In this document: piece by piece, positions 41,802 through 64,000 of the stretch | Position numbering within the stretch: position 1 is the first letter of the stretch | Layout: the number at the start of each line of letters is the position of its first letter | DNA from: Psychroflexus longus | Lineage (GTDB): Bacteria; Bacteroidota; Bacteroidia; Flavobacteriales; Flavobacteriaceae | Direction of reading: 5' to 3' | NCBI RefSeq assembly: GCF_020164595.1 | Contig: NZ_JAIQZE010000001.1 | Coordinates: 372,001 to 436,000 of the forward strand | DNA: 64,000 nucleotides | The notes under the pieces: model-generated | What the model was told of the DNA's origin: nothing | The model's input: only the letters and a program-made list of their open reading frames with translations | Databases searched by the model: none | Program-made: the position numbers and the translations under genes

Positions 41802-41808
41802 GACTTAT

Positions 41809-45264: not shown

Positions 45265-45307
45265 TCTTTGTTAATTGGTTCTACTTATTTAAGGTTCTAT
45301 TATAAAG

Positions 45308-46066: not shown

Positions 46067-46081
46067 TTTAGTAAATTTTAG

Positions 46082-46948: not shown

Positions 46949-46959
46949 TGGGTTTATAT

Positions 46960-48402
46960 TTATTCAGTGTAGAAATAAATGTTATCTAAAAATATATTAG
47001 ATATCGTAGGGTTATTAGGCCCATCTTCAGAATTAAAAAGGAGTAGACCAATCCTGTTTTTATCCCCAAGTCCCGAAAAGTCCGATAAAGGAATATCAAA
47101 ACTGACCCATTGGTCTTCGACTAATTGATTTCCAGATATTAAAAAAGAGCCCACAGTTTCTGAAGCACCATAATTTGTAAGCTGTAATAATAATCTGTCG
47201 TTGGCTTGAATAGCTTCTTGAACATTAATATCTACATGTAAGTGAGTTAAATTAGTGGCATTAACAGGTTGAACTGCTTCTGACGGGAAGGTTACATCAT
47301 TAAAAACAATGCCTACAAAATTTAGATCTGTATAACTTATTATAGACTCTGGTCCAACCGGGACAACACCGCCAAGCGTGTTTTGAAAGGGCTCAAAAAA
47401 TGAATTGTATCTTGATACTGGAATATCCTGATAAGCATCACTAAATATAGAAACAACATTTTCTGCGGGCTGTGTTGGATCGGGAGCAAAATTGAAGCCT
47501 CCTTCAACATTAAGTGACAATGAACCTTGAGCTCCAACACCATCTAAGGAAGCAGATATTGTCACTTCGCCTTCACCTATAACTGATGCCAGGCCAAATT
47601 CGTCAACTGTAGCAACTCCTGGGTTTGAAGATGAAAAATCAAAAAAAGAAGGAGCTGCATTAACACTTACATTTCTACCAGATTCGGTGTTGAATGTTTG
47701 GGTAAGTCCAGTGAGCTGAAAAGGTACATTAATAAAACCTTGCTGTGATATGTTTTCACCATTTAAAATTCTTGGTTGTGGTTGAGCAATTGTTCCTAGA
47801 TTTTCAAATCTTATTTCATCTATCCAAATTGTAAATCCAACACCATCTGTACTTGAAGTACCTGTTGAAAAGAAAAACATTCCTTTTTCCTGAATCAATT
47901 TTGAAGGATCTGGAATTGGTATGATTACTTTTCTCCAATCTGTTGATAATTGTATGTCTGTCCTTGCCACTGTGTATTTATCCAATTCAAAGTCGAACCC
48001 AAAACCAACTTCATCGAAAAGAGCGGTTCTTGAAGCCTTCACCCAAAAGGTTAAAGCATCATACTCTGTCAGATTTCTTCCTTCACCTCTATCTTTAAAA
48101 ATACCACCAATAAAACCACCATCTGGATCATTTGGTGCGGGGATATCTAGTCTTATTGAAGAAGTGCCAACATAGGCTTCATTTTGGTCAGTTCCAAAAC
48201 CTTCAGGGTTTGCCCCATCGGCAGGATTAAACGAGATGAAAAACTCATCTGTTAATCCCACAGGATTATCAGTATATACGTCTGCATTGGAAGGGAAAGT
48301 AGCCAATACCGCATCGTCGGATACGTCTCTTTCGCAACTTGTAGTCATGATCATAGAAAGGACAGCAAGTGCTATAAATTGAATATATTTTTTCTTTATC
48401 AT
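46960..48402 (-). CDS. Multidomain surface glycan-binding lipoprotein (CBM, Ig-like Big2, shared module)
   Basis: The protein has 480 residues with lipid at Cys23 (MTTSC). Residues ~40-202 form a CBM-like sandwich (TEYDALTFWVKASRT, GFTIWIDEIRFENL). Residues ~215-300 form a Big2 Ig-like domain (SSSNPGVATVDEFGLASVIG). Residues ~315-480 form the module shared with two other proteins of this locus, starting ENVVSIFSDAYQ and including LTHLHVDINVQ and IFLDNIYFYT. No catalytic residues are visible. It lies 8 bp after the GH-barrel fusion gene. It probably binds laminarin at the cell surface. Confidence 0.83.
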   Translation of the reverse strand: MIKKKYIQFIALAVLSMIMTTSCERDVSDDAVLATFPSNADVYTDNPVGLTDEFFISFNPADGANPEGFGTDQNEAYVGTSSIRLDIPAPNDPDGGFIGGIFKDRGEGRNLTEYDALTFWVKASRTALFDEVGFGFDFELDKYTVARTDIQLSTDWRKVIIPIPDPSKLIQEKGMFFFSTGTSSTDGVGFTIWIDEIRFENLGTIAQPQPRILNGENISQQGFINVPFQLTGLTQTFNTESGRNVSVNAAPSFFDFSSSNPGVATVDEFGLASVIGEGEVTISASLDGVGAQGSLSLNVEGGFNFAPDPTQPAENVVSIFSDAYQDIPVSRYNSFFEPFQNTLGGVVPVGPESIISYTDLNFVGIVFNDVTFPSEAVQPVNATNLTHLHVDINVQEAIQANDRLLLQLTNYGASETVGSFLISGNQLVEDQWVSFDIPLSDFSGLGDKNRIGLLLFNSEDGPNNPTISNIFLDNIYFYTE

Positions 48403-48410
48403 CTTGAATA

Positions 48411-51400
48411 TTATTTACCAATATTAAATCTTACATAAGTCATGATTTCCCATTCAGAACCATCTGGAAAGCCTACTGGACTAATTGCTGGATTAGTGTC
48501 GAAGGAACCAATCGGTGTTGCATTGGGTGAATATCTGGGAGAAAATTCATTTAATGACCGCCATATGCCTCTTATACCAACTTGTGTAGTGGGCAAAATA
48601 TACCACTTTGGTTTTCCTAATGTAGTTGACAAATCTATCATGGTTTGGACAGGGAAAGTTAAGTTGAAATCCCTGTGGTAATCATAAGGACCCCAGTCGT
48701 TGATTTTCACATCCCCTCTAATCCAATATTTTTTATACCTCACGTCGAGATTGGCTCCAAACCTATCGGTCACTAACCGATCAGAGTCTCCATTAGCCTG
48801 ACCGTTTCCGTAATAAAATGTACCCACGATGCTGAGATCAGGCCCTAAACTTGACACCATTCTAGCGTGAGCTTCCCATAAATCCTGAGCTGGGACTGTG
48901 TTTGCAAAAGGAAAAAATTCACGAGTGTCGAGAAAACCAATATGTGCATCCATCGTCGTTGGTAAGTGTCTGAATACAAAACCTGCACTCATTGCAAATT
49001 CAGCATCTTCAGATCTATTGTTATCCCAGTCATACATATAAGTTCCCGGAGTAGGATCGAAGGTGAAAAGAATTTCACCGGCTGTAGTTTCTCTATTAAA
49101 ACGAACAGCAAATGGATCGTCGATAAAATTTCTTAATCGACCTGGAGCGTCACCATTATCTGGCATAGCGTCTACCAAAGGCTTTTGCCATAAAAAATTT
49201 GGGGCAATTTGCCATTTCCCAATATTATAGGTGAAACCAGATAAAAAATTGGATTGGTTACCACTTCCATTATCTTTTAATTTCCATCCTGTAAAGGTTA
49301 AAGTAGGGTCGAATCCCCCATTGGCTACAAGCCCTGAGATACCTCCTTGTGCATACCAGTTAAATTTACCGCCTTCATAAGTCAGTTTGGCTTTACCTCC
49401 CCAGTTATCGGATGCTTTTACATTATCTACTACGACATTGCCGTTATCATCGATATCTTGATAAGTACTTCCGTTAAGCGGACTTCCTGCCCATATACCA
49501 CCTACCGTCAATCCAAATTTTCCAAAATCTCGTTCTAGAGCCAAAGTAGCTCTTTCCTGGGGCCACGGTGGAATCACACCACTTCGCACCTGATTCTGAT
49601 CTAATATTCGTCGTCCGTTATCATCAAACTCTAATTCGGTTTCTAAGTCTCTATGGTAAATTCCTGTTACATCCCATTTTTGAATGGTCTTGGTATATTT
49701 ATAAAGCATAGTAGGATTGGCACCCCACCACAATTGAGGACCAATGGCAGCTTTTAAACCATCAAGTTCTCCTTTGGCATCAATCTCTATTCCCGAGATT
49801 ACACCTCCGTAGATATCTAAGTTCGGACCATAATTAGCTTCTGGATACAATCCAAAAAAATCACCTTCGTAACCCCAATGGTAATGACCTGTTCTGTAGA
49901 ATCCTCTTAAGTCGAATAGATCGTTGTTCCATTCAAACTCAGCTTGGTAGACCTGCAAATTATTATTGTCTTGGATTATCGTTTCTCCGTCTGGAGTTTG
50001 GACTCGAATGGGTCTAGCTCTATTTTCATAAAAAATTTCGTTAATTGGATTTTCAGCGAGATCTCCAACGATGTTGAAGTCCACATTGAAAGTGACATTA
50101 GCTGCAGGTTTACCACCCACACCAATAAAATAGGATTGCATCTGGTCAAAACCCAATTGATTGGGATAAGAAGTGGAGTTTGGATCCGGATTGTCTGGTG
50201 TTGTAATTAAACTACCTCCAGTATAAAAGGTTGATAAATGAGCTGCTACTCTGCTAATTCCAACCTTTTGAGTTTCCCCACCACCTAAAGCGGCTTTATC
50301 TCCTCTAGCCCTTAAAACGGCATCCATCAAAGAAATATCCTCAAAATGCTTGGTCACAGTTAGACCATTAACATTTTCATCGTAAGGATTGAGTTCATGT
50401 GCTTCTTTTAGAGCGTAGTAAGCCGCCCTTGGGTATAAGTCGTACAAACCTCTTGCATTAGTTGGACCTTTGGCACACACTCCAAACCACTCTTCATTCA
50501 TGTTATTTTTACCTTCCTTATGGTCTCTGTCATAACCTCCGTTTTCCCATGAGGCATTAGAATCGTGAACATCTAAATTATCTGTCTGTCCAAATTTCCA
50601 CCAACCATCACTAAATTGGAAAGTAAAACCTCCAATAGAATTTTCAGCTCTTCCAAGTCCTGCAGCATTTGCGTAAATATCTTTCCAGTTATTCACCATG
50701 TAATAAGCCTGTGATTTCTGATCTTCTTGCATTTCGATGGCATTAAAAGCATCTGCTCCAAATTCTGTGAATAGAATTGGTTTGCCGTAGACCTCTTTTA
50801 CTTTCTGAAAAGCATCTCCAAATGAGGCCCCTCTGTACATATTGGTTCCATAAATATCTACATCAGGACATTCTTCAGCGATAATATCAAGAAAGAGAAC
50901 GTCACCGTTGCAAATTGCAACTGGAATATTGCTATTGATTTCCTTCATGTCTACAGCTGCTTCATTCATAAGGCGGTACATCGGACGACCCCTAATTTCA
51001 CCAACAGCATTGATTTGATCTTCCTCGTCAGGGAAATCTTCTGTTTCAGCACCTGCCCAAAACAACCCATAATTGTTTTCGTTACCTAACAAGAATAACA
51101 GAAGCCCTGGAGTATCTTTATAATTCTGAGCTAGTTCATTAACTTCTGAGAGAAGTAATTCTACAGTGTCTGGATCATCGTATTTAGTTACTGGTGTCCA
51201 TACTCCGTTTATCGTCAGTCCATACCGGCCAAAAGAATGGTTGAGCATGGTATAGATCCCATAATTTTCATAAATGTAAGTGATCCATTTTGGCTGAATG
51301 CCAGTGTAAAGTCTTACCGTATTAACCCCCATATTTTTCAGCAAGCCCATCTCTGCATCCAAAGCAGCCTGAATTATATCATCAGATTGTTCCCAAAGAC

Positions 51401-51581
51401 TATAACTGAAATTTGTTCCTCTGGGAAAATAATCCCAGTTCATACCATTTACCATAAAATCTTTACCATCTACTTGAAGCTTCATTCCTTGCTCGTTAGA
51501 AATGACCTTTACATCATGAGCTTGTGAAAAACTAAAGCTCGTAAGAAGTAAAAAAGCGATTGCAGTTAGAAATTTTTTCAT
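48411..51581 (-). CDS. Glycosidase (GH2/GH5-like barrel) fused to an outer-membrane beta-barrel
   Basis: The protein has 1056 residues. After a signal peptide (residues 1-20), residues ~25-400 form a (beta/alpha)8 glycosidase domain of the GH2 TIM-barrel/GH5 type. FMVNGMNWDYFPRGTN and VNTVRLYTGIQPKW open it, with a candidate acid/base Glu168 in LLGNENNYG and nucleophile Glu273 in ILFTEFGADAF. From about 440 on, the chain has many alternating amphipathic strands with aromatic ends (FDLRGFYRTGHYHWGY, RYKKYWIRGDVKINDWG, IMTYVRFNIGK), typical of an outer-membrane barrel. The enzyme would thus be fixed in the outer membrane by its own barrel. It heads the 16-kb operon; a direct-repeat element lies about 200 bp upstream. 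Substrate is inferred as beta-glucan from context. Confidence 0.8.
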   Translation of the reverse strand: MKKFLTAIAFLLLTSFSFSQAHDVKVISNEQGMKLQVDGKDFMVNGMNWDYFPRGTNFSYSLWEQSDDIIQAALDAEMGLLKNMGVNTVRLYTGIQPKWITYIYENYGIYTMLNHSFGRYGLTINGVWTPVTKYDDPDTVELLLSEVNELAQNYKDTPGLLLFLLGNENNYGLFWAGAETEDFPDEEDQINAVGEIRGRPMYRLMNEAAVDMKEINSNIPVAICNGDVLFLDIIAEECPDVDIYGTNMYRGASFGDAFQKVKEVYGKPILFTEFGADAFNAIEMQEDQKSQAYYMVNNWKDIYANAAGLGRAENSIGGFTFQFSDGWWKFGQTDNLDVHDSNASWENGGYDRDHKEGKNNMNEEWFGVCAKGPTNARGLYDLYPRAAYYALKEAHELNPYDENVNGLTVTKHFEDISLMDAVLRARGDKAALGGGETQKVGISRVAAHLSTFYTGGSLITTPDNPDPNSTSYPNQLGFDQMQSYFIGVGGKPAANVTFNVDFNIVGDLAENPINEIFYENRARPIRVQTPDGETIIQDNNNLQVYQAEFEWNNDLFDLRGFYRTGHYHWGYEGDFFGLYPEANYGPNLDIYGGVISGIEIDAKGELDGLKAAIGPQLWWGANPTMLYKYTKTIQKWDVTGIYHRDLETELEFDDNGRRILDQNQVRSGVIPPWPQERATLALERDFGKFGLTVGGIWAGSPLNGSTYQDIDDNGNVVVDNVKASDNWGGKAKLTYEGGKFNWYAQGGISGLVANGGFDPTLTFTGWKLKDNGSGNQSNFLSGFTYNIGKWQIAPNFLWQKPLVDAMPDNGDAPGRLRNFIDDPFAVRFNRETTAGEILFTFDPTPGTYMYDWDNNRSEDAEFAMSAGFVFRHLPTTMDAHIGFLDTREFFPFANTVPAQDLWEAHARMVSSLGPDLSIVGTFYYGNGQANGDSDRLVTDRFGANLDVRYKKYWIRGDVKINDWGPYDYHRDFNLTFPVQTMIDLSTTLGKPKWYILPTTQVGIRGIWRSLNEFSPRYSPNATPIGSFDTNPAISPVGFPDGSEWEIMTYVRFNIGK

Positions 51582-51653
51582 ATCAAAGAATCTAAAAAAT
51601 TCGTTATTCTCAAACTTAAAGGTTTTCGCCGTTAAACATTTGATTTAACACAC

Positions 51654-51664
51654 TACAAAAAATA
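51654..51664 (-). promoter_or_regulatory. Candidate promoter box of the 16-kb glucan operon
   Basis: The minus strand reads TATTTTTTGTA about 75 bp before the GH-barrel start. It is one T longer than the TAnnTTTG consensus. Nearly the same string, TAGTTTTTGTA, lies at a similar distance upstream of the T9SS-tailed gene (35542-35552), and TATTTTTGTA lies upstream of susC. Confidence 0.4.
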
Positions 51665-51782
51665 TACACACTCGCTATGATTTTTTTTACTCCGAAAAAT
51701 GAGTAAACCCGCTTAAGACCCTTAACTTAATATTAAGAAAGGATTTTCAGCGAGAGCTTTGATTTGGGTTGAGAGGATGTTT

Positions 51783-51800
51783 TGTATAGGAAATGTATAG
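51783..51800. promoter_or_regulatory. Direct-repeat element upstream of the 16-kb glucan operon
   Basis: The plus strand reads TGTATAGGAAATGTATAG: two copies of TGTATAG exactly 11 bp apart. It matches the element upstream of susC (61763-61780) at 17 of 18 bases. The 11-bp period puts both half-sites on one face of the helix, as for an activator that binds tandem sites. Confidence 0.65.
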
Positions 51801-52033
51801 CTGTAAACTGTTTAAAAAAAGGAAATTTCAAATTACTACACTTAAAAAGCAAAGATTTTAGTCATCACCTAATCAATACATTGATTATTCCTTATTTATT
51901 ATACAAAATATATAGCATTTGATTATTAATAGCTTATAAAATATACATAAGTAGTAATTTCAATGAAAAAGATTATCAAATCAATTTTTAAAATGAAGAT
52001 TTAATTCTTTTTTTTAACTATACATCTTTATTA

Positions 52034-54307
52034 TTATAATTCTATACGCTTCGAGTTAGTATCCTGTGAATTGTATCCTAGAAATATTTCAAATTCACCG
52101 CTCTCAAAAATCCATTCACCGTTAGGCAAATAGTATCCTAGATCTTCTTCAGTAAGTGTAAAGCTTAAGCTTTCGCTTTCACCAGCTTTGATTTTTACCT
52201 GTTGAAAGGCTTTAAGCTCCTTTACAGGTCTTGAAATTTGAGCAACCAAATCTCTGATGTAGACCTGCACAGTTTCTGTGCCGTCCATATCTCCGCTATT
52301 TTGAACATCAACAGTGACTTCGATAGTGTTTGAGGAGGTTAACGGAGTTACTTTAAAATTACTGTAGATAAAGTTTGTATAGCTTAGTCCAAAACCAAAA
52401 GGATAGAGTGGTGTATTTTGTTCATCGGTATAATGTGACCTGAAGACGTCGTTTTGATTAGGATCATTAGGGCGTCCTGTAGATAAATGATTGTAATACA
52501 AAGGTAGTTGTCCGACATGACGAGGAAAGCTCATTGGCAACTTACCACTTGGGTTGTAATCTCCGTAGAGCACCTGAGTAATTGCTGAACCACTAAAGGT
52601 ACCAAGTTGCCATGCCTCTACAATTGCTGGAATATGTTCATCTGCCCAGTTGAGTGTAAGTGGTCGCCCGTTCTGTAATACTAAAACGATGTTGGGATTC
52701 ACTTTATAAACCGCTTCTAATAATTCCTGTTGTAATCCTGGTAATCCAAGTCTTGTTCTGCTTCTTGCTTCTCCGCTTTGCAATCCATGTTCACCAAGGT
52801 TCATAATGACAACATCTGCATTTTTAGCAGTTCGTACGGCTTCATCAAAACCTGATCTATCTGTTGTATTGACATTAAGTTCTTTTACAAATTTGGTTTC
52901 TCCTATAATTAGCTGAGGACCAGCTGCGTAATTAAGTGTATTATTTGCTTCATAAGCTTGCATAGCTTCCATCAAAGACTCAGCCGTTCCATCGTCAGCA
53001 GCTATTCTCCAACTTCCTAGTGGTGAAGTTTTATCCTGAGCGAGATCGCCAATTATAGCAATCTTTTGATTTGATTTTTGAAGCGGTAAAATATCGTTAT
53101 CGTTTTTTAGTAAAACGATAGATCGTCGTGCAATATCTAAAACCTCATCTTTAAATTTAGGACTGCATACTAGTTCGTTTTCACGATCTTTAGATAAATA
53201 TTTGTAAGGATCGTCAAAAAGGCCGAGTTCAAATTTAACTTTAAGAATACGTCCCGCTGCATCATCAATTAAGTTTTCATCTACTTCACCATCTTCTACC
53301 AGGCTTGCTAATTGCTCAATGAAATGATAAGACTCCATGTCCATATCAGTTCCAGCTAGGACAGCTTTTTTAGCAGCATCCCGACCGTCTTCTGCATAAC
53401 CGTGGTTAACCATTTCACCTACAGAATCCCAGTCGGATACCACAAAGCCCTGAAAACCCCATTGATCTTTTAAAATATTCCTGAGTAAAAACTTATCACC
53501 TGTAGCAGGGATACCATTAAGAACGTTGAAAGCGTTCATTACACTTTTGACATCGGCTTCTAATGAAGCTTTAAATGGTGGAAGTATTACATTGTATAAA
53601 GTGGTAGTCCCCACGTCAACAGTGTTATAGTCACGACCAGCTTCAGCAAAACCATATCCTGCAAAGTGCTTGGCAGTTGCTGCAATAGTATGAGAAGCAG
53701 CTAAATCCTGACCTTGAAAACCATTTATTCTAGCTTTGGCAATTTGACTGCCAAGAAAAGGATCTTCTCCAGCACCTTCCATCACTCTACCCCAACGTGC
53801 ATCTCTGGAGATGTCGACCATAGGCGCAAAGGTCCAGTTAATTCCTGCGGCTGATGCTTCTTCTGCGGCAATTTTAGCAGAACGCTTTATAGCTTCTAAA
53901 TTCCAACTAGCAGCTTCTGCAAGTGGAATAGGGCTTATTGTTTTATATCCATGAATCACATCAAAACCAAAAATCAGTGGAATTCCAAGTCTCGACTCTT
54001 CAACAGCTATTTTTTGAACGGCTCTTACATTTTCAACGCCATGAACGTTGAGCATAGAACCTACCCAGCCTTTTTTGATGTAATCTAATTTTGTAGCAGC
54101 CTGACCTTTATCTGGCTCAGGACCCGTAAAATCCATAAATCCACTGTACTGGTTCATCTGGCCAATTTTTTCTTCCAAAGTCATTTTAGCTAAAAGCTCT
54201 TGAACTTGAGCGTCGATATTCTGTGAGGCATAGTTACTTTTAGGGTCTTGCTGGCAAGATAAAATGAGCATTGCAATACCCATATAAATAAAATGTTTAA
54301 AATTCAT
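52034..54307 (-). CDS. bglX: GH3-family beta-glucosidase lipoprotein (BglX type)
   Basis: The protein has 757 residues with a lipobox LILSC, lipid at Cys18. The GH3 N-terminal barrel has MTLEEKIGQMNQ, GINWTFAPMVDISRDARWGR and the nucleophile Asp292 in GFVVSDWDSVGEM. The alpha/beta sandwich follows (RRSIVLLKNDNDILPL, EHGLQSGEARSRT) and a fibronectin-like C-terminal domain (GDMDGTETVQVYI). The length is that of E. coli BglX (765). It would release glucose from beta-gluco-oligosaccharides in the periplasm. It has its own unit: a terminator separates it from the susCD operon upstream, and a TAAGTTTG box lies about 102 bp before its start (54409-54416). Confidence 0.94.
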   Translation of the reverse strand: MNFKHFIYMGIAMLILSCQQDPKSNYASQNIDAQVQELLAKMTLEEKIGQMNQYSGFMDFTGPEPDKGQAATKLDYIKKGWVGSMLNVHGVENVRAVQKIAVEESRLGIPLIFGFDVIHGYKTISPIPLAEAASWNLEAIKRSAKIAAEEASAAGINWTFAPMVDISRDARWGRVMEGAGEDPFLGSQIAKARINGFQGQDLAASHTIAATAKHFAGYGFAEAGRDYNTVDVGTTTLYNVILPPFKASLEADVKSVMNAFNVLNGIPATGDKFLLRNILKDQWGFQGFVVSDWDSVGEMVNHGYAEDGRDAAKKAVLAGTDMDMESYHFIEQLASLVEDGEVDENLIDDAAGRILKVKFELGLFDDPYKYLSKDRENELVCSPKFKDEVLDIARRSIVLLKNDNDILPLQKSNQKIAIIGDLAQDKTSPLGSWRIAADDGTAESLMEAMQAYEANNTLNYAAGPQLIIGETKFVKELNVNTTDRSGFDEAVRTAKNADVVIMNLGEHGLQSGEARSRTRLGLPGLQQELLEAVYKVNPNIVLVLQNGRPLTLNWADEHIPAIVEAWQLGTFSGSAITQVLYGDYNPSGKLPMSFPRHVGQLPLYYNHLSTGRPNDPNQNDVFRSHYTDEQNTPLYPFGFGLSYTNFIYSNFKVTPLTSSNTIEVTVDVQNSGDMDGTETVQVYIRDLVAQISRPVKELKAFQQVKIKAGESESLSFTLTEEDLGYYLPNGEWIFESGEFEIFLGYNSQDTNSKRIEL

Positions 54308-54427
54308 GTGTTGTTTATTATGCGATTTACTTTTCTAGTGACTCATTGAATTTTAATGTTACTTTTTATAGAAATAGTATTCATAAAAGAACCTTTAACA
54401 AATCAAATCAAACTTATTTTAAGCAAT

Positions 54428-54469
54428 AATATCAAAAAAGAGGATATTAAAATCCTCTTTTTTGATATT
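54428..54469 (-). terminator. Long perfect hairpin after the susCD operon
   Basis: An 18-bp perfect stem (54428-54445 with 54452-54469) closes a 6-base loop. On the minus strand the 3' arm carries six T followed by GATATT. It lies 25 bp past the last gene of the susCD operon. Confidence 0.8.
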
Positions 54470-54493
54470 GATATGGAGTTTATATTGTTGTGT

Positions 54494-55417
54494 CTATTCT
54501 GAAGTAATTATAAACCACCAGTCAAATTCAGAATTACCATCAGTTATTTTTAAAGTCATTTCATTAGGCTCAGAACGATCAAATATTTGATAACTGTGTG
54601 TTCCCGTATAGTATCCGATAAACCCTAGTCCTGATAGACTAATGGTTTCTGCACCACCAGGATTGATAAGTTGCCAAGTAGTTTGAAAATCATCCAAAGG
54701 TAAATTTTCTATATCTGCCCCATTAGGAGTTCCACCAGAACTTCCTAATTGATCAACATAAGCATCTCTACCAAAAACAGTTCCTGAAGTATCATCGTTA
54801 TTGACGTTTGTGATAAATGTAAAAGTACCGTCTGATTCAAAAATATAGCGATCATCATACATTCCTACACCAACTTTTTCTTCTGGCGCAACACCAAAAA
54901 ATTCAACAGGAATATTACCACCAACGGGACCTAAACCAAAATGACCAGGTACTGAAGATTTAATTCTCCACGTTTTTGAAGTGTCAGCGTCGGGATTATC
55001 AGGATCAAAATTATAAAGTTTAGTTTTTAATTCTACAGGTGGTTCATAGGTTGCTAAAACATCAACATCAAATGTTTCTGATGAAGAAACACCACCTTTA
55101 CCATAAGCTATCACTGAAATGGTATAAGTATTAACACCTAAAGTGGAAAATATAAAAGATGCTGATCCTGATGGGGCATTCTTTTTATTGGATTGGTAAA
55201 CGAAACCATAAGAGATTGCATTGTCTGCTTTAGCTGTAAATATAACTTCACCTGATCCATCACCATTAGGGTTTTCGCTATCAGCACCAATAATTTCTGC
55301 TGAAATATCAATATTGGATGGCGCTACGATTTCCCCAAACTGTTGATCGTCATCCTGGCAACCTACAACAAGGAGGAGAACCAGAAGACTTAAAATTATG
55401 TGATTGTATTTTTTCAT
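54494..55417 (-). CDS. Surface glycan-binding-like lipoprotein, SusE/F position
   Basis: The 307-residue lipoprotein has lipid at Cys20 (LLVVGC). Residues ~33-120 look like a PKD/Ig domain (VAPSNIDISAEIIGADSEN, YTISVIAYGKGGVSSSE). Residues ~145-307 form a separate beta-rich domain with KTWRIKSSVPGHFGLGP, DDRYIFESDGTFTFITN and ISLSGLGFIGYY, ending EFDWWFIITSE; I recall this domain from other beta-glucan loci but know no named family. It closes the susCD operon, 12 bp after the previous gene. The APSNID opening after the lipobox is shared with the neighbour at 55430. Binding of glucan is inferred. Confidence 0.78.
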   Translation of the reverse strand: MKKYNHIILSLLVLLLVVGCQDDDQQFGEIVAPSNIDISAEIIGADSENPNGDGSGEVIFTAKADNAISYGFVYQSNKKNAPSGSASFIFSTLGVNTYTISVIAYGKGGVSSSETFDVDVLATYEPPVELKTKLYNFDPDNPDADTSKTWRIKSSVPGHFGLGPVGGNIPVEFFGVAPEEKVGVGMYDDRYIFESDGTFTFITNVNNDDTSGTVFGRDAYVDQLGSSGGTPNGADIENLPLDDFQTTWQLINPGGAETISLSGLGFIGYYTGTHSYQIFDRSEPNEMTLKITDGNSEFDWWFIITSE

Positions 55418-55429
55418 TGTCTTAAAAAT

Positions 55430-57007
55430 TTAATTGTAAAAATAGAAGTTATCGATATAAACGGTATCGTCAGCATCTGCTTCAACTAGGTTATCAAAAA
55501 TTAACTGAGTAACAGCAGAAAGATCCATATCAAAATCAGCAAGTGGAATATCCACACTAACCCATTCTCCTAAAGTTAAAGCTCCAGCATTTTCTATATC
55601 TTCCTGAACTGGATCTAGTGCTGTATTAACTAGCTTAAGCCCAAGGCTTTCTGCATTAGGAGACCAATAGTCGAAATGGACATGTGTCATACTTGTTAAA
55701 TCAGTTGGATTACCATAATCTGTCACAATTCCTAAGAAATCAAAGTTTGTAAATAACATGGCATTATTTCCATCTACTGAAACCTCCTCATAGCCTGAAC
55801 CAGACCATACAGTTGGAAGCTCACTTACAGTAATTGAAGTATATGTATCACTATAAATTGAAATTACGTTTGATGCGTCTTGAGTAGGAACTGGAGCTGA
55901 TGTAGTTGGCTCTTGCGCTACTTCTTTTGAAAAATATAAGTTATCGATATAAACGGTAGCTCTGTTTCCTGCTGTGTCAAATAACAACTGAGTCACCTGA
56001 GATCTATCCATGGCATAATCTGCTAGAGGGAATTTTACACTCACCCACTGGCCTGAAGTAATAGATTCTACAAATTCCATATCTTCTTCGCCAATAACAG
56101 TATTGACTAATTTAAAACCTAGTGCAGAAGCATCGGGAGTCCAATAGTCAAAATGCACATAGTCCATATCTGTCAAATCAGTTGGATTCCCATAGTCCGT
56201 GACTATACCGGTAAAAGCAAGATTAGAATACTTAATAGTATTATCACCCTCAATTACAACTTCCTCAAAGTTAGTGTCTGACCACTCTGTTGGTAATTCA
56301 GTAACTGTAATTGGCGTGTATCTATCACTATAAATAGCTATAACATTAGGAGAAGGTTCCGATGGTCTTGGTGCAGGAACGACGGGTACTAAAATCTCTT
56401 CAACAAAAAAGTTTTCTTCTACATAAGTTGTAGTTTGTGATGCAGCACCCATAACTTCAACTGAAATCGTATACGATCCAGATTGTTGATACGTGTAAGA
56501 TAAAGTTTCCTCGATTGAACCACTAACTACAGACTCAACACCCTCTTCGCCAAAATCAACTTCAAAGCTTGTCGCAAAGTCAGCAGTGACAGAAACATTT
56601 ACAGTATTGGATTCTACGCCATCATTCTCGATAGTAACTTCAAGATTTTCGGGTGCATTAAAGGACACTTCTATAGGCTGGACTGATTCTGTTTGCCTAT
56701 CAGCCGCGTTCATAGCTACCAGGGTTAAATCAAAAGTACCTTCCGCGTAAATGTGTGAAAGTGATTCTCCAACGCTAATGGTATCTGAAAGTTCACTTCC
56801 ATCGCCAAAATCAGCATAAAAAAAGTTCACATTTTCAGCTTTAGGCAGGATAGTTACCAGTCCTGAATTATCTTGAGTAAAACTAATCTTAGCGTCAATA
56901 TTGGAAGGAGCCCCAATTGGTATATCTTGAAGACCCTCATCATCGGAACATGATACAGTAAACACTGTAATCATGAGTAGGTATAGTATTAAAAATTTCT
57001 TTTTCAT
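55430..57007 (-). CDS. Surface glycan-binding lipoprotein with two PKD-like domains and a duplicated module
   Basis: The protein has 525 residues with lipid at Cys20 (FTVSC). Residues 31-116 and 117-203 are two PKD/Ig-like domains (FYADFGDGSELSD, SGSYTISVEVMG). Residues 221-360 and 380-525 are two copies of one module: both start NVI(A/S)IYSD, share VTDYGNPTDLT and VHFDYW, and end in a (V)YIDN(L/F)YF strand. The duplication is inside one gene. Related modules occur at 34151 and 46960. It follows susD by 12 bp, the usual place for a SusE-like protein. The paired modules probably bind laminarin chains cooperatively; that is inference. Confidence 0.85.
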   Translation of the reverse strand: MKKKFLILYLLMITVFTVSCSDDEGLQDIPIGAPSNIDAKISFTQDNSGLVTILPKAENVNFFYADFGDGSELSDTISVGESLSHIYAEGTFDLTLVAMNAADRQTESVQPIEVSFNAPENLEVTIENDGVESNTVNVSVTADFATSFEVDFGEEGVESVVSGSIEETLSYTYQQSGSYTISVEVMGAASQTTTYVEENFFVEEILVPVVPAPRPSEPSPNVIAIYSDRYTPITVTELPTEWSDTNFEEVVIEGDNTIKYSNLAFTGIVTDYGNPTDLTDMDYVHFDYWTPDASALGFKLVNTVIGEEDMEFVESITSGQWVSVKFPLADYAMDRSQVTQLLFDTAGNRATVYIDNLYFSKEVAQEPTTSAPVPTQDASNVISIYSDTYTSITVSELPTVWSGSGYEEVSVDGNNAMLFTNFDFLGIVTDYGNPTDLTSMTHVHFDYWSPNAESLGLKLVNTALDPVQEDIENAGALTLGEWVSVDIPLADFDMDLSAVTQLIFDNLVEADADDTVYIDNFYFYN

Positions 57008-57019
57008 CTCTATTATGTA

Positions 57020-58537
57020 TTAGTAGTTTGCGTTTTGTTCCCAATTTCCTTGAGAAAATTGAATTTCTTCAAGTGGTACAGGGAAAACTTCATTTTTGTT
57101 TGGAGTAAATCCATCAATCACGTTAGCTGCTCTTCCAGTTCTTACTAAATCAAAGAAACGGTGTCCTTCACCTACAAGCTCTAGTCGTCTTTGAGTATAT
57201 ATCTCTTCGGTTAACTGACCTCCAGATAAGTTAACATTAGGCAAGCCTGCTCTGTTTCTAACTTGATTCACATAATTAAGAGCTAAACCATCATTGATGC
57301 CCCCTCTGTTTAGGGCTTCAGCTGCCATCAATAGAACATCTGCATATCGAATAGCTCTGTAATTGTTTGGTTGTGTCAAGTTAGCATCCCCTAAATTATC
57401 ATTTTGTCTAGGAATATACTTTCTATTGTAATAACCGGTATGACCTGTTGTAGGGTCTTGGTTTCCTATGGTGAAAGTCGCACCTGTGTCTGCAGCCCAA
57501 GCTTCAATGTTTAAGATAGAAACATCTCTTCTTAAGTCATCAGAATCAAAGGCATTATAAGTTTCTTCAGTAGGTAAATTAAAACCAAATCCAGATTCAA
57601 AGACAGGACCATTGTAGCCTCTTACGCCACTAAACCCTACCATTACATTACCTTCACTACATTGTAAACAGTCAAAACTAGCTCCTTGGGCTTGACCAGA
57701 ATATTGAATTTCAAATACAGATTCTGCACTATTTTCAGCTTCAAATTCAAAAAGGTCTTCGTATTCTTCATCACCTTCTGTTCCATACAAATGAAACTGT
57801 TGTGAACCAATAACTGCATCAAACAAAGGAGCTGCTAGATTAAACTCATCTTGGTACAAGTGTACCTTACCAAGAAGTGCCTGAGCAGAAGCTTTGGACG
57901 CTCTTCCTATTTCTAAAGCCTGAGAAGACATGTTCGGTATGGCCAGAGAAAGATCGTTCTCAATATATTCGTAAACTAAGTCAATTGATGTTCTAGGCAG
58001 AGATGTTTCTTCACCTAGTTCAAATTTACCTTCTGGCTTAATAGGAATAGCCCCAAACCATTTGACTAGTTCAAAATTGAAATAAGCTCTTAAAAAACGT
58101 GCTTCTGCAATAATCTGCTCTTTACCTTCAAATTCTATCTTATCAGCATTTTCAATGATATAAGATGCTCTGTAAACGCCAGCAAAATTGAAATCCCAAA
58201 TATCATCTAAGTTATTGTTATCCGGGGTATGAGCCATTCTATCTACCTGCTGCCATCCTACAACGTCGGTTGCACTTTCTCCTCCAGCATGTGTATTGTC
58301 TGATGCAATTTCTCCAAGAATCACATTGACATAAGTAGACTGCAAAATATCATAAGAGCCAATCAATGCATTTTGAAAGTCTTCTTCAGCCTCAAAAAAG
58401 TTTTCTGAGGTAAGTCGGTAAGGTGGTTCTAATTCCACAAAATCGTCTGAACATGACACTAAGGCTAACGCCATTAAAATCATGATCCATTGGTTATATA
58501 TTGTCTTTGCCATTTTCATTCGTTTAAAGTTTAACAT
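57020..58537 (-). CDS. susD: SusD/RagB family outer-membrane nutrient-binding lipoprotein
   Basis: SusD proteins form the lid of the SusC channel and bind the glycan. The 505 residues have a lipobox LALVSC (Cys29 from this start), the first-domain landmarks PPYRLTSENFFEAEEDFQNAL and NADKIEFEGKEQIIAEARFL-like helices, and the C-terminal block YADVLLMAAEALNRGG with RRLELVGEGHRFFDLVR. The start at 58537 overlaps susC by 14 bp; Met7 (58519) or Met9 would leave a short gap and also give good signal peptides. It is followed by two binding lipoproteins. Confidence 0.95.
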   Translation of the reverse strand: MLNFKRMKMAKTIYNQWIMILMALALVSCSDDFVELEPPYRLTSENFFEAEEDFQNALIGSYDILQSTYVNVILGEIASDNTHAGGESATDVVGWQQVDRMAHTPDNNNLDDIWDFNFAGVYRASYIIENADKIEFEGKEQIIAEARFLRAYFNFELVKWFGAIPIKPEGKFELGEETSLPRTSIDLVYEYIENDLSLAIPNMSSQALEIGRASKASAQALLGKVHLYQDEFNLAAPLFDAVIGSQQFHLYGTEGDEEYEDLFEFEAENSAESVFEIQYSGQAQGASFDCLQCSEGNVMVGFSGVRGYNGPVFESGFGFNLPTEETYNAFDSDDLRRDVSILNIEAWAADTGATFTIGNQDPTTGHTGYYNRKYIPRQNDNLGDANLTQPNNYRAIRYADVLLMAAEALNRGGINDGLALNYVNQVRNRAGLPNVNLSGGQLTEEIYTQRRLELVGEGHRFFDLVRTGRAANVIDGFTPNKNEVFPVPLEEIQFSQGNWEQNANY

Positions 58538-61500
58538 TTAGTCCAAGCGTATAGGTTCTTGGCAGCGGATAAAATCCAAGATCAATTCCTCCTCCAATTG
58601 GAGCTCCTGTAGAGGCTGTAGGATCGTATCCAGAGTATTCTGTAAAGGTAAATGCGTTATCAACTTTAGCATAAATTTTAACTCCATTGATACCAAAAGC
58701 CTTTAGGTTTTCTACAGGAACATTATAACCCAGAGAAATGGTTTGTATTCTTAAAAAAGAGCCGTCCTCAACAAAATAATCTGAAAATAACTTGTTGGCT
58801 GTAGCTGCAGTTGTTACACGAGGTTCTGTAGAAGAAGTCCCTGGACCTGTCCAGCGGTTTAATCGTCTGCTTAACATATTAACGTTGATCTGATCTCTTT
58901 CAAAATTTCTTACAATTTCATTGCCTAAGTTAGCAAATGAATAAGCGCTAAAGTCAAAGTTTTTGTAAGTAAAAGATAAATTAAGACCCATGGTTACATC
59001 TGGTATTGGGTCACCAATATATGTTCTGTCATCTTGACTTATAACCCCATCTCCGTTCGTATCGACGAACCTTAAATCACCAGGACTAGCTTCAACACCT
59101 GCAAGTTGGGATTGAGAAGGATGTGCCTCGACTTCAGCTTGAGACTGAAATATTCCATCAGTCTTAAGACCGTAAAAATATCCTAAAGGTAATCCTACTT
59201 CCATTCTGGATGGGGGTTGCTGTCCTACACTAAACTGCCCGCCTTCTAGAAACTCTGCACCGTTAATTTGAGTAACCTCGTTATTAATTGTACTTACGTT
59301 ATAATTGATAGAGAATGAGAAGTCATCACTAAAATCTTTGCTATAGCCCAATGTTGCTTCAAAACCAGTATTTTTAACTGTACCAGCATTGATAGTTGGA
59401 GCAGAACTTCCAGGAGCAGCTATACCAAATATACCTGAGGTTGGTATCCCTGGTATCAGAAGGTCCTCCCTTGTGTTATCGTAATAATCTAATGTGATAT
59501 CCAAGTCATTATTGAATAACTGAAGATCCAAACCTATATCCAATTTTTTAGCGGTTTCCCACTTTACAGCTGGATTAGCTAGGGGACCTAAAGCTTGCCC
59601 GGTAGTTAAACCTTGGTCTGGACCTAATAAATACTCTGCTTCACCACTCAGTACAGATAAAAAGAGAAAATCTCCAATCTGGTCGTTTCCAAGCTCACCA
59701 TAACTTGCTCTTAATTTTGCAAAATTTAAAAAATCACTGGTGCCAATAAAATCTTCTTCTGTTAACAACCAGCCTGCTGTCACCGATGGGAACCATGCAG
59801 TTGAATTATTAGGACCAAAATTTGACGAAGTATCTCTTCTTAATATGGCTGAAAACAAATATTTGTCTTGATAATCAAATTCAAATCTTGTGAAGTAAGA
59901 TAATCTTCTGAACTCGCTTACAAATGATCCGTTGGTTTGATTTCCTTCTCCAACACCAGTAGCAGAACCTAAGTCAGCAAAGTCATATCTGTTTCTTAAA
60001 ACACCTGTTCGAGAACCGAACAAACCTTCTCCATGAAACCTAAATACAGTTAAACCAGTTGTGTTTGTGACATCCAATTCATCGAAAAATGTTTTTTCTA
60101 TAGTATTGAACAAATCAAATGTGTAATCATAAAAATCTTGCTGATCCAAATCGACTTGATTGACAGGTCTGTTGAATACTTTCCCCGTTCCAAAATTAAA
60201 TTCAGGGAAAAATTGTCTGTTATTTAATTTGGAAGAATTAAAACCATATCGAGCAGTTAATTCAAAATCTTGAATGTACTCTAATTCAGCTACCACATTA
60301 CCACTTAAACGATTACTTTCAAAATCATTAAATGTATTATTGATTTGAGTAAGTGGATTTACTACTTCGTTTCCTAAGTCAATAGTTCCGTCTAAATTAT
60401 TTCTATTTTGATTAATGGTAGGAGCAATGTTCAAAGCATTGAACAAAACCGAGCCTAAACCAAATGAGTTAATTCCCTGGGATCTGTTATTTGTAAAAAT
60501 AACATTGGCCTGAATGTTCAAGTAATCCTTCACTTCAGTATTTATAGATAAGTTAGCCGTAGTACGTTTAAAATTTGATTTATCTGGAGCTACAATACCT
60601 TTTTGATCTAAATGGGAAGCACTAAACGAGTAATTTGTTTTTTCAGAACCACCTCTTATCGCAAAGTTATTACTAACCACTGAGCTTGTCTCTAAAACAG
60701 CATCTTGCCAATCTGTATCGTTTTCAATATTGTTAAGATTTGAAAAAGGCAAAGATTGTCCCGCATTAGCGTATTTTTCATTGATAAGCAGTGCATACTC
60801 ATTGCTGTTAAGCAAAGGAAGTTTTCTTGTTGTTTCCTGTAAACCTACATACGTGTTATATGTAATTTCTGGAGCCGTGTTTTTACTACCTTTTTTAGTT
60901 TCAATAAGAACAACACCGTTTGCACCGATAGAACCATAAATAGCAGCTTGTGCATCTTTCAATACCGTGATGGTCTCTATATCTTGTGGGTTTATGGAAT
61001 TAAGACCGCCGTCATATTGAAAACCATTAAGAATAATAAGAGGGGAACTGTTACCGTTGGTGGAGACACCTCTAATTCTAATGTTAGATTCAGCACCCGG
61101 AGATCCAGATTGTGGAGTTACATTGACACCTGCAGAAGTACCCTGTAAAGCAGTCGCTGCATTGACAGGCTCTAAATCTTGAATCGATTCAGAGTTTACT
61201 GTAGATACAGCCCCTGTCACTTTTCGCTTACTGCTTTTACCATAACCTATGACAACTACATCGTCTAGAGCCTGAGTGTCAGAAGTCAATTTAACATTAA
61301 AGTCTGAGGCTTCTGCAACCTTAATTTTCAGGGTTTTAAAACCTAAGTATGAGAAAACCAGAGTTGCATCGTTAGGGACAGACGATAAAGTGAAATTACC
61401 ATCAAAATCCGTTGTGGTTCCTGTAGAAGTTCCTTCAACTATTACGTTGACTCCTAATAAGGGCATTCCAGACTCAGCATCTGTAACACTTCCTTCAATG

Positions 61501-61568
61501 TCGTTTTCTTGTGAATATGTCCACATAGAAAGTAAACAAATTGTCGCTATCAAAAAGTTTTTAACCAT
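58524..61568 (-). CDS. susC: SusC/RagA family TonB-linked outer-membrane transporter
   Basis: This 1014-residue protein imports oligosaccharides over the outer membrane with TonB energy. A signal peptide (1-19) is followed by the carboxypeptidase-regulatory-like domain (GSVTDAESGMPLLGVNVIV, DFDGNFTLSSV). The plug carries the SusC signatures VVVIGYGKSSKRKVTGAV, RIRGVSTNGNSSPLI and ETITVLKDAQAAIYG. The rest is a 22-strand-type barrel ending PLPRTYTLGLNVKL. The length is normal. Its spacer toward the upstream regulator gene holds four half-sites, a palindrome and a -7 box. Confidence 0.97.
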   Translation of the reverse strand: MVKNFLIATICLLSMWTYSQENDIEGSVTDAESGMPLLGVNVIVEGTSTGTTTDFDGNFTLSSVPNDATLVFSYLGFKTLKIKVAEASDFNVKLTSDTQALDDVVVIGYGKSSKRKVTGAVSTVNSESIQDLEPVNAATALQGTSAGVNVTPQSGSPGAESNIRIRGVSTNGNSSPLIILNGFQYDGGLNSINPQDIETITVLKDAQAAIYGSIGANGVVLIETKKGSKNTAPEITYNTYVGLQETTRKLPLLNSNEYALLINEKYANAGQSLPFSNLNNIENDTDWQDAVLETSSVVSNNFAIRGGSEKTNYSFSASHLDQKGIVAPDKSNFKRTTANLSINTEVKDYLNIQANVIFTNNRSQGINSFGLGSVLFNALNIAPTINQNRNNLDGTIDLGNEVVNPLTQINNTFNDFESNRLSGNVVAELEYIQDFELTARYGFNSSKLNNRQFFPEFNFGTGKVFNRPVNQVDLDQQDFYDYTFDLFNTIEKTFFDELDVTNTTGLTVFRFHGEGLFGSRTGVLRNRYDFADLGSATGVGEGNQTNGSFVSEFRRLSYFTRFEFDYQDKYLFSAILRRDTSSNFGPNNSTAWFPSVTAGWLLTEEDFIGTSDFLNFAKLRASYGELGNDQIGDFLFLSVLSGEAEYLLGPDQGLTTGQALGPLANPAVKWETAKKLDIGLDLQLFNNDLDITLDYYDNTREDLLIPGIPTSGIFGIAAPGSSAPTINAGTVKNTGFEATLGYSKDFSDDFSFSINYNVSTINNEVTQINGAEFLEGGQFSVGQQPPSRMEVGLPLGYFYGLKTDGIFQSQAEVEAHPSQSQLAGVEASPGDLRFVDTNGDGVISQDDRTYIGDPIPDVTMGLNLSFTYKNFDFSAYSFANLGNEIVRNFERDQINVNMLSRRLNRWTGPGTSSTEPRVTTAATANKLFSDYFVEDGSFLRIQTISLGYNVPVENLKAFGINGVKIYAKVDNAFTFTEYSGYDPTASTGAPIGGGIDLGFYPLPRTYTLGLNVKL

Positions 61569-61728
61569 ATCATAAATTATTTAACGTAAATCTAATTTTT
61601 CATAAACTCTATAAACAGATTTGGACATTACAAAAAAACTACAGAAAGTTAAATGCATATATTTAATAGGCATTAAATACTGATAGGTGTTGATTTTATT
61701 GACACCTCAAGAGATGTTAAAATTACAA

Positions 61729-61742
61729 CTACATCGATGTAG
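61729..61742. promoter_or_regulatory. Perfect 14-bp palindrome CTACATCGATGTAG in the susC control region
   Basis: CTACATCGATGTAG is its own reverse complement and lies 7 bp downstream (in susC direction) of the TATTTTTG box. It could be an operator for a symmetric dimer such as a LacI-type repressor, or chance. Confidence 0.4.
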
Positions 61743-61748
61743 AACTTA

Positions 61749-61756
61749 CAAAAATA
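61749..61756 (-). promoter_or_regulatory. Candidate -7 box for susC
   Basis: The minus strand reads TATTTTTG, an exact TAnnTTTG match. The tandem half-sites begin 6 bp upstream, in the place where a -33 element would be, which fits an activator-dependent promoter. It would give a long leader of about 175 bp. A second T-rich string nearer the gene (61627-61644) is an alternative. Confidence 0.45.
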
Positions 61757-61762
61757 GCTTAA

Positions 61763-61801
61763 TGTATAGGTAATGTATAGAAAAATATAGCTCATGTATT
61801 G
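61763..61801. promoter_or_regulatory. Tandem half-sites upstream of susC, candidate activator binding region
   Basis: On the plus strand TGTATAG occurs at 61763 and 61774, with weaker copies AATATAG (61784) and TGTATTG (61795). Spacings are 11, 10 and 11 bp, close to one helical turn. The first pair, TGTATAGGTAATGTATAG, matches the element at 51783 at 17 of 18 bases. The last copy ends 4 bp before the stop of the regulator gene. Confidence 0.65.
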
Positions 61802-61804
61802 GTG

Positions 61805-64000
61805 CTAGATTTCTAGAATATAATCTGTCAAGCCTATTTCTCTATCTAGATCCATCTTTTTACGCAAACGATATCGTTTGACTTCTACACTTTTGGTTGA
61901 AATATTGAAAAGAGGTGCAATCTCTTTTGAAGATAAGTTGAGCCTTAGGTAGGCACATAATTTTAGATCGTTAGGAGATAAAGAAGGGTGTTTAGATTTC
62001 ATTGTCTTTAAGAAATCTTTGTCTAAATTATTAAAAGCCTCCTTAAACATTTTCCAGTCATCTGTGTTATTTATGTTTTTATTAATGATTCTAATGACAT
62101 TTTGAGATGACTTTGACAAAGGTTTTTCCTTCTGAAGCTCATCTTTAATCGATCCTAAAAATTCATTTTTCTTGATTAAGCTCATTGTAGAAACCGCTAA
62201 TTCACGGCTTTTGCTATCAATATCCTGCTGAAGCTTTTCATTCTTAATATTTATAAGTTGCTTTTGGCTTTCAAGTTCTTTTAGCTCAAGCTCTCTATTG
62301 GCTTGGAGCTTTAATTCATGTTTTTGCTTTTTATAATAACTCTTATAAGCGTTATGAGTAATGATAATAATAATTACAAGTAGTAGAACATAAAGTACGA
62401 TCATACCAGTGGAAAAGATAAAGGGCTGCTTTATAGTAAAAGAATAAGACTGGATTTCAGATTCATAAAGTTCGCCAACGCGAGCTCTTACTTGAAATTC
62501 ATAATCTCCAGCAGGAAGATTGCTAAATGAGGTTTCATGAACCTGACTCCAATCGGACCATTCGTCTAAGAATCCTTTCAACTTGTACTGGTACTCAGAA
62601 GCGAAATATTTTTGGAAGTAAGGAATACTAAAGTTGAAGTAAAGATTATTGAATTTATTCTTAAGTGTCGGAGAAACTTCAAATTCAGCAGCTTCATATG
62701 TCCCCCCATTTTTTTTGAATTGAATTGAATTTATTTTTAAGGGTTTATCGATTTTGGTTTTAAAAAATTTATCAACATCAATAACAAGATAGCCTTGTGT
62801 GGTTCCCACTAAGTATTGATTTTCATCTCTTAATTGGTAGATATTTTCATAGCCTGCCATGGTTTCCCTAAAGTCGGAAGTGATAGGGATTGAGGCAATC
62901 CTGAATTCTTTTTCGAATTTACCCTGAAGCGTAAAATCGATGCTAGTTTTATTAAAACTCCACAGACCAATTTCTCCTTCTGTATTTACCAGTTTTCCTG
63001 ATGAATACGTGAGAGGAGTATACATTTGACTTAGTAATGAGTCCCGCGCGAATTCATTTTTATCTTTTTTGTATTTCCAAACTCCAGAGCTTTGAGCATA
63101 ATAAACAGTATTCTTGAATTTAATCAGACTTGAATATAAACCTAAATCGAAACCTTTAAACTGATGAATATTTTCAACTTCTGTGTAATTAGTGTTCAAA
63201 CTGACTTTATAAACACCTTTATACTCATGATCTATTAAAATTTCAGTTGGGGATATAAATTCAATAAATTTTGATGAAACATCGAAGCCTTTAATAGGAT
63301 TCCGAAAACTCCAAGTCCCAATATCTTTTTCTAAGATGCTCATTCCTTTATAATTCCCCTGCAGAACTAAATGAGGATGATTGGGAACTGGCTTAAAGCA
63401 CCAGGTACCGGTTTGATCTGATATTTGATTAAACTGATTGTTGGTATAACTGAAGGTTCCGTTATTGTGACCACATAATAAATCACCATCGATCACATTG
63501 AGTGACCAAACCTGACCACTGGATCCCTCAACGAGAGTGAAGTTTTCTTTTGTGTCCTCTAAGGACCTGAAGAATAATCCTTGATTGGTCCCCAAAAAAA
63601 GTTTATCCTCAAAAATTGCAGAAGCGTAAACAGTACCCAAAACCCCCTTATCACCCTTGTAAACGGAAATTGGTGAGTCAAGGTTGACACAATTGATCCC
63701 ATTGTCTAAACCAAGCCATATGTTTTTATCCGAATCCTCAAAAATAGATAGAACTGTATTGTTGTATAAACCTTCTTGTTGAGAAATTTGTTTATCAATA
63801 GTTCCGTCTTTATTCAGAAAAACAACTCCTTGCGATATTGTACCTAAAACGAAGTCACCTGATTTAGTCTGAAGACTTGTGTAAACCGAGAAATCTTGAA
63901 GTTTATTGTTTGGTGAAGGCCACTGCTTTGGAGAGGGTTCTAAGGTTAAAATACCATTAATATCAGTTTGAACTAACAGTTCAGAATCCTGCTTATAAAG
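61805..64000 (-). CDS. Propeller / triple-Tyr / LuxR-HTH transmembrane regulator, 5' end outside the window
   Basis: The frame stays open from the window edge to the stop at 61805, giving 731 visible residues. A TTG at 63640 could start a shorter frame, but upstream codons continue the same pattern (EGLYNNTVLSIFEDSDKNIW, LGLDNGINCVNLD), so the gene is longer. The visible order is: beta-propeller repeats of the two-component-regulator type, a triple-Tyr domain (YQYKLKGFLDEWSDW, LPAGDYEFQVRA), one membrane helix (VLYVLLLVIIIIIT), a coiled coil, and a C-terminal LuxR helix-turn-helix (LNLSSKEIAPLFNISTKSVE). There is no histidine kinase domain. It probably senses a glycan fragment in the periplasm and activates the neighbouring susCD operon from the membrane. 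Confidence 0.88.
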   Translation of the reverse strand, partial: LYKQDSELLVQTDINGILTLEPSPKQWPSPNNKLQDFSVYTSLQTKSGDFVLGTISQGVVFLNKDGTIDKQISQQEGLYNNTVLSIFEDSDKNIWLGLDNGINCVNLDSPISVYKGDKGVLGTVYASAIFEDKLFLGTNQGLFFRSLEDTKENFTLVEGSSGQVWSLNVIDGDLLCGHNNGTFSYTNNQFNQISDQTGTWCFKPVPNHPHLVLQGNYKGMSILEKDIGTWSFRNPIKGFDVSSKFIEFISPTEILIDHEYKGVYKVSLNTNYTEVENIHQFKGFDLGLYSSLIKFKNTVYYAQSSGVWKYKKDKNEFARDSLLSQMYTPLTYSSGKLVNTEGEIGLWSFNKTSIDFTLQGKFEKEFRIASIPITSDFRETMAGYENIYQLRDENQYLVGTTQGYLVIDVDKFFKTKIDKPLKINSIQFKKNGGTYEAAEFEVSPTLKNKFNNLYFNFSIPYFQKYFASEYQYKLKGFLDEWSDWSQVHETSFSNLPAGDYEFQVRARVGELYESEIQSYSFTIKQPFIFSTGMIVLYVLLLVIIIIITHNAYKSYYKKQKHELKLQANRELELKELESQKQLINIKNEKLQQDIDSKSRELAVSTMSLIKKNEFLGSIKDELQKEKPLSKSSQNVIRIINKNINNTDDWKMFKEAFNNLDKDFLKTMKSKHPSLSPNDLKLCAYLRLNLSSKEIAPLFNISTKSVEVKRYRLRKKMDLDREIGLTDYILEI

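Follow-up and report, generated by a model that had tools for sequence, protein, structure and literature searches.

Inverted repeat modules at helically phased distances as candidate operators of a membrane-anchored LuxR-type regulator in laminarin utilization loci of Flavobacteriaceae

In a stretch of 64,000 nucleotides from Psychroflexus longus (contig NZ_JAIQZE010000001.1, positions 372,001 to 436,000, forward strand; hereafter the window), two closely similar 18-bp elements lie upstream of the two minus-strand operons (assigned from open reading frames and Pfam) of a laminarin polysaccharide utilization locus (PUL). Which protein reads these elements, and how would it act from them? A first-pass annotation, made from the sequence alone, had proposed that they bind the LuxR-type regulator encoded next to them. 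That proposal is supported here as a prediction: near-exact copies are found only at the PUL promoters, and the adjacent regulator is implicated by loci chosen for its homologues and by a clade of paralogues with altered half-sites (both described below). Two features had escaped the annotation, namely that the site recurs in inverted form, hidden in what it had called a TTTGTA box, and that the spacing of the two copies is helically phased across the family. With a probability that we put at roughly three in four, the elements are operators of the adjacent membrane-anchored regulator, which would occupy two modules on one face of the DNA, loop the DNA between them and activate the promoter.

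The two elements, TGTATAGGAAATGTATAG at 51783-51800 and TGTATAGGTAATGTATAG at 61763-61780, have the sequence and position first given for them; in both the half-sites are set at an 11-bp step, and both have the same orientation relative to their operons. Of the weaker copies that were thought to continue the series near susC, one is an extra half-site (CCAATACA, with its ACA at 61795-61797, 21 bp from the next half-site), whereas the other, CTATATT, occupies an unconserved position. Throughout the 2.95-Mb genome, TGTATAGGNAATGTATAG matches these two elements only (reversed control, 0), and the two exact matches to TGTATAGNNNNTGTATAG are again these elements, so that the near-exact form does not recur in unrelated places. 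When 60 relatives were scanned with ≤ 1 mismatch, nine genomes gave matches, all from the same genus; the reversed control gave one match in each of two genomes. Within the window alone, 14 matches with ≤ 3 mismatches were counted against 6.25 expected.

The T-rich TTTGTA box reported nearer to each gene does exist. However, it is not a generic T-rich promoter box, an identity that we rejected on the family consensus and a two-matrix scan (see below): it reads TGTA-N7-TGTA, which is the element repeat in reverse complement, and is located ∼ 50 bp upstream of the flavobacterial −7 box. Both promoters therefore consist of the following parts, listed after the regulator gene.

61805-64000, minus strand: 3′ part of the regulator gene; the frame runs beyond the window and has 965 codons in total
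61795-61803, minus strand: susC promoter, first unit of the distal array, ACCAATACA (corresponds to the ACA at −21 in the family)
61761-61782, minus strand: susC promoter, distal module made of two units at an 11-bp step; the element at 61763-61780 lies inside it
61624-61645, plus strand: susC promoter, proximal module, TTACAAAAAAACTACA as read on the plus strand; 11-bp repeat, opposite in orientation to the distal module
61587-61594, minus strand: susC promoter, candidate −7 box TAGATTTA; predicted start at about 61582
51781-51802, minus strand: promoter of the 1056-aa glycosidase-like protein, distal module; contains the element at 51783-51800
51649-51670, plus strand: same promoter, proximal module, opposite in orientation to the distal module
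51611-51618, minus strand: same promoter, −7 box TAAGTTTG; predicted start at about 51606

Distal and proximal modules are 137 bp apart, centre to centre, at susC and 132 bp apart at the 1056-aa glycosidase gene. The element-to-box distances of 116 and 121 bp given previously hold approximately (117 bp at the 1056-aa gene and 122 bp at susC, measured between cores), but their supposed similarity lends no support by itself, because a difference of 5 bp amounts to about half a helical turn.

Two further sequences were seen in these promoters. Between the two susC modules lies a perfect palindrome, CTACATCGATGTAG (61729-61742), whose halves look like regulator half-sites; it is also present in two other loci (L057 and L059) and is degenerate in other Psychroflexus loci. 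At three promoters of the 1056-aa gene (L070, L071 and L076), ACGAAAACG(T/A)TTAAG, which we take to resemble a LacI-type operator, overlaps the −7 box TAAGTTTG, and a second regulator may act there.

The arrangement was examined across the family in loci picked by regulator homology: 60 family loci, of which one (L140) was dropped as its next gene is unrelated (set 1, n = 59), 80 further loci (set 2), and the best 80 of 545 named loci, from which 13 identical to earlier loci were removed (set 3, n = 67). Using matrices derived from set 1 only and a threshold of 10 bits or more, both modules were found downstream of the regulator in 56/59, 62/80 and 63/67 loci, respectively, or 181/206 in total. 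Downstream of regulator orthologues (genus and 59 family loci) the distal modules have the consensus ACCTATACATTACCACAACATT; the proximal modules, read on the opposite strand, have ACC(a)C(a)ACAAAAAAtATACA. Both comprise two ACC...ACA units (ACCnnnACAtt) 11 bp apart. In 170/181 loci the distal pair begins 23–27 bp past the stop codon of the regulator gene, and a third distal unit, with its ACA at −21, is present in 134/181. The proximal module also keeps a fixed distance to the core promoter: TAnnTTT(A/G), the last base mostly A, lies at +52 in 164/181 loci and agrees with TAnnTTTG, the −7 box of flavobacterial sigma-A promoters. In F. psychrophilum the −7 box spans −12 to −5 (PMC9723704), and on that basis the proximal module would be located at about −64 to −43. 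A −33 box is not evident in the target promoters.

Scanning 54 PUL loci (907 kb) with both matrices gave 40 inverted pairs, compared with none in the reversed sequence and none in direct orientation. These zeros are the control; the 40 pairs do not give a genome-wide rate, because the loci had been chosen for holding the regulator or the element. A strict two-module pattern, run over 296 genomes of the order, returned two matches (control, 0) and proved too strict. Downstream of the modules, the next same-strand frame has 987–1061 codons and is SusC-like or like the 1056-aa protein in 58/60 set 1 loci, and all 20 downstream regions examined encode a GH16 homologue together with a homologue of GH3, GH149 or the 1056-aa protein. 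Outside the Flavobacteriaceae, the same kind of two-module promoter with a distance of 142 bp was seen in two contigs of metagenome-assembled genomes titled Bacteroidales and Draconibacterium (L308 and L310), which are nearly identical to each other.

The distance between the two modules is quantised. Centre-to-centre distances in the 181 loci are 101 bp (n = 1), 110–114 bp (14), 120–126 bp (69), 132–138 bp (61), 142–150 bp (30), 157 bp (2) and 169–172 bp (4). For sets 1 and 2 (118 loci) the best period is 11.4 bp (bootstrap 11.1–11.7, R = 0.73), and none of 2000 smoothed nulls reached this R; all 181 loci give 11.56 bp, and the class means of 112.2, 123.5, 134.4, 146.0 and 170.8 bp give a slope of 11.4. 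All 62 distances of set 2 fall inside the islands. The empty gaps were defined post hoc. This does not apply to the test of phase in sets 2 and 3: with the phase fitted on set 1, 115/125 loci lie within a quarter period on either side, where 62.5 are expected. Changes between turn classes number at least 27 on the regulator tree of 118 loci and at least 44 on that of 181, and the 93 loci under 75% identity still give R = 0.66. Matrix register errors were rejected as a source of the 11-bp steps, since the distal start is fixed at 23–27 bp in 170/181 loci and the period is visible from the stop codon: the proximal offset measured from there, with no distal matrix involved, gives R = 0.68 and a best period of 11.84 bp (n = 180). 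The family period agrees with the helical repeats of E. coli repression loops, where lac loops in vivo gave 10.95–11.60 bp (PMC1762422) and about 11 bp with optima near 133 and 144 bp (PMC8501960).

The regulator gene, which precedes susC on the same strand, has its end at 61805. Its product has a propeller/Y_Y_Y sensor, one transmembrane stretch (read by eye from the sequence), a predicted long helix and a predicted LuxR/NarL-type helix-turn-helix (HTH) domain. A Pfam scan of a 731-aa part of the protein (E ≤ 0.001) returned only Y_Y_Y (35.4 bits), Reg_prop (20.8 bits, cut-off 20.4) and GerE (PF00196; 19.8 bits, below the gathering cut-off of 23.5), and no kinase, receiver or AraC domain. In the predicted structure (mean pLDDT, the per-residue model confidence, 83) the long helix is followed by the HTH domain with a four-helix GerE fold. 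Foldseek matched this model to the isolated DNA-binding domains of NarL, DosR, LiaR and VraR with target-normalised TM scores of 0.70–0.78 and probabilities of about 1.0, although E-values were only 0.05–0.35; phmmer with the HTH consensus found no match in the PDB at E ≤ 0.01. One regulator of this kind is encoded in the genome (E ≤ 0.001), orthologues are present in 22/27 genomes of the genus (E below 1e-200), and 248/397 family genomes have a match (E ≤ 1e-60). In many laminarin clusters the first gene is annotated LuxR, as stated in a 2026 paper (PMC13188888).

Half-site sequence follows the regulator's predicted recognition helix (model helix 161-174). In 9/206 regulators V or I is replaced there by T, at a position that we take to align with a DNA-contacting valine of NarL. 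CGA half-sites occur in both modules in six of these nine, in 1/141 regulators with V and in 0/48 with I; of 62 HTH columns this one is most strongly associated with CGA. At five loci (L155, L209, L214, L221 and L223) the T-type paralogue, with CGA half-sites, is a second copy in a genome that also encodes a V-type regulator with ordinary sites, which looks like insulation of paralogues. For a separate regulator paralogue, about 30% identical (genome G012), the region upstream of another susC (L081:1980-2191) has ...CTACTTCATTACTACATC... in the distal and GAAGTAGTAGTAGTGTAC in the proximal position, which suggests a similar inverted design with a different sequence.

From these features we infer binding, looping, activation and a ligand as follows. 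The regulator would sense a periplasmic β-glucan product. At every target promoter it would have two modules to bind: a distal array of direct repeats, and a proximal pair, opposite in orientation, immediately before the core promoter. Regulators at both modules, on the same helix face, would touch or would be joined by docking at the membrane, so that the 100–170 bp between the modules would be bent into a loop, and this loop would position the proximal regulator to activate a weak −33 promoter. We lean, with distinctly less assurance, towards a wider statement for the Flavobacteriaceae: that a one-component glycan sensor with a membrane anchor would close the DNA between inverted modules into a loop at the inner membrane, and that the natural spacing of its target promoters would be an evolutionary ruler of the helical repeat that their DNA has in vivo (about 11.4 bp).

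Several results weigh against the looped-operator reading. One or both modules fall below 10 bits in 25/206 loci. A forecast that at least 80% of set 2 would lie within 2 bp of four class centres failed (46/62). The second-operon promoters, which stand outside the 181-locus set, fit the grid poorly in Psychroflexus: 8 of the 12 checked (downstream gene matched to the 1056-aa protein) are at 130–132 bp, about 3 bp short of it, and the rest at 96, 120, 135 and 138 bp, and three more, with the downstream gene unchecked, are at 100, 131 and 131 bp. In the window itself the second-operon promoter (132 bp) is about 3 bp off the grid and 5 bp away from the susC promoter (137 bp). Second promoters in other genera are on the grid in 4/5 cases, the one off it being Psychroserpens L327 at 131 bp. 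At susC, the Psychroflexus promoters keep to the grid (134–137 bp in 12/14), but their proximal modules have low family-matrix scores and two were misassigned. As for specificity, T arose only once on the regulator tree, a test on independent pairs had a single pair to work with, and HTH columns 11 and 61 track CGA sites too. Within the genome, the element with ≤ 2 mismatches has 15 matches against 14 in the reversed control; because the excess vanishes, only the near-exact form is informative by itself, and the element at two to three mismatches was rejected as a genome-wide probe. Looser skeletons are no commoner than in controls: one occurs in 4 places against 3 in the control, and the exact proximal box is found 3 times in genome and control alike.

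These last counts are what would be expected if the repeats were a chance occurrence or generic promoter sequence without regulator function. We give that explanation next to no weight: two of the four skeleton places are the PUL promoters, as are two of the three exact proximal boxes, the third being inside a coding frame, and conservation across the family together with the absence of control pairs in the two-matrix scan disfavours it strongly. That the modules bind some other protein, such as a global regulator or a nucleoid protein, while the adjacent regulator acts elsewhere, would suit the A+T-rich motif. It is nevertheless very unlikely, as the near-exact element is confined to this PUL, the array keeps its place just past the regulator stop codon, and the paralogue clade has changed half-sites in both modules.

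The phasing itself admits two other accounts. If the 11-bp steps were mutational, arising by gain or loss of whole repeat units with no selection for helical phase, slippage in an array of 11-bp period would indeed yield such steps. We regard this as barely credible, and unit duplication was rejected as their source: longer spacers contain no extra units (among the 170 fixed-register loci, ACA is found at +22 in none and at +33 in three), the spacer is non-repetitive, and scatter of 0.9–1.7 bp is tolerated within classes, yet the gaps of 4–8 bp between them are empty. Unlikely, though less so, is an arrangement with no loop, in which the modules are bound independently and phase is kept because a tethered regulator can dock only on DNA that turns both modules to the membrane on one side. 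The transmembrane stretch and long helix before the HTH domain are compatible with this, a common face would suffice for quantised spacing, and the 67/77-bp spacing of SusR boxes has been explained loop-free, by monomers on one side of the DNA (PMC3878776). A supercoiled loop, in contrast, is better suited to inverted modules and to a period of about 11.4 rather than 10.5 bp. We prefer the looped-operator reading.

How does this design compare with known systems? MalT-type LuxR activators control maltose operons from asymmetric boxes of defined orientation, one group of which lies far from the promoter and another close to it. The likeness is one of box arrangement; the protein architecture of MalT differs. 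By layout the regulator is like SusR, which is also a membrane regulator with a periplasmic sensor and a cytoplasmic C-terminal HTH domain, encoded next to susC/susD, and which also has two widely separated boxes on one helix face. For SusR-like regulators of Bacteroides these were predicted to be single boxes in direct repeat, at a spacing of 67 or 77 bp (Ravcheev et al. 2013, PMC3878776), and distant sites on one face are therefore not new for PUL regulators. Here, unlike in SusR, the modules are arrays of 11-bp repeats, inverted, with about seven spacings between 101 and 172 bp. Hybrid two-component systems (HTCS, AraC-type) have a related propeller/Y_Y_Y periplasmic sensor (the solved HTCS sensors 3v9f and 4a2l match that of the regulator), PUL control and direct repeats, which in their case are 21 bp apart (PMC3878776), but they combine a histidine kinase, a receiver and an AraC-type HTH in one chain, none of which the Pfam scan found in the 731-aa part of the regulator. 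The lac and ara loops of E. coli likewise have two remote sites and depend on the helical repeat (PMC1762422 and PMC8501960); those involve soluble repressors and engineered spacing, whereas here the spacing is natural, varies across species and belongs to a membrane-anchored, presumed activator. The literature searched contained no counterpart of the inverted modular layout, of so many turn classes or of a ruler that extends over a whole family, nor any motif bound by a laminarin-PUL regulator of flavobacteria.

Among the glucans that algae store, laminarin is a major one, and the Flavobacteriaceae considered here belong to the bacteria that degrade it. The analysis yields a motif, an operator architecture, predicted start sites and a means to predict regulons in many genomes. 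It also offers a system for studying promoter activation by a transcription factor that is tethered to the membrane, and with the spacing data nature provides an uncommon experiment on the role of helical phase in DNA loops.

The genes that the two promoters would serve are as follows.

52034-61568, minus strand: first target operon (open reading frames and Pfam)
58524-61568, minus strand: SusC
57020-58537, minus strand: SusD
55430-57007, minus strand: PKD-domain protein
54494-55417, minus strand: 307-aa protein
52034-54307, minus strand: GH3
39001-51581, minus strand: second target operon (open reading frames, Pfam and NCBIfam)
48411-51581, minus strand: 1056-aa glycosidase-like protein
46960-48402, minus strand: 480-aa protein
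46082-46948, minus strand: GH16
45308-46066, minus strand: 252-aa protein
41809-45264, minus strand: GH149 1,3-beta-glucan phosphorylase
40518-41801, minus strand: 427-aa protein, GH17-like by eye only
39001-40494, minus strand: GH30-like protein

The second operon is probably a single transcript. GH149 is assigned by its NCBIfam model with 1800 bits (cut-off 1150), while the GH30-like protein reaches 235 bits with the endo-1,6-beta-glucanase model, under the cut-off of 700. The 1056-aa protein (48411-51581) has only a weak match to a glycosidase TIM barrel (Glyco_hydro_2_C, 19.1 bits, under the cut-off) and a long C-terminal part with no Pfam match; it is conserved as the opening gene of the second operon.

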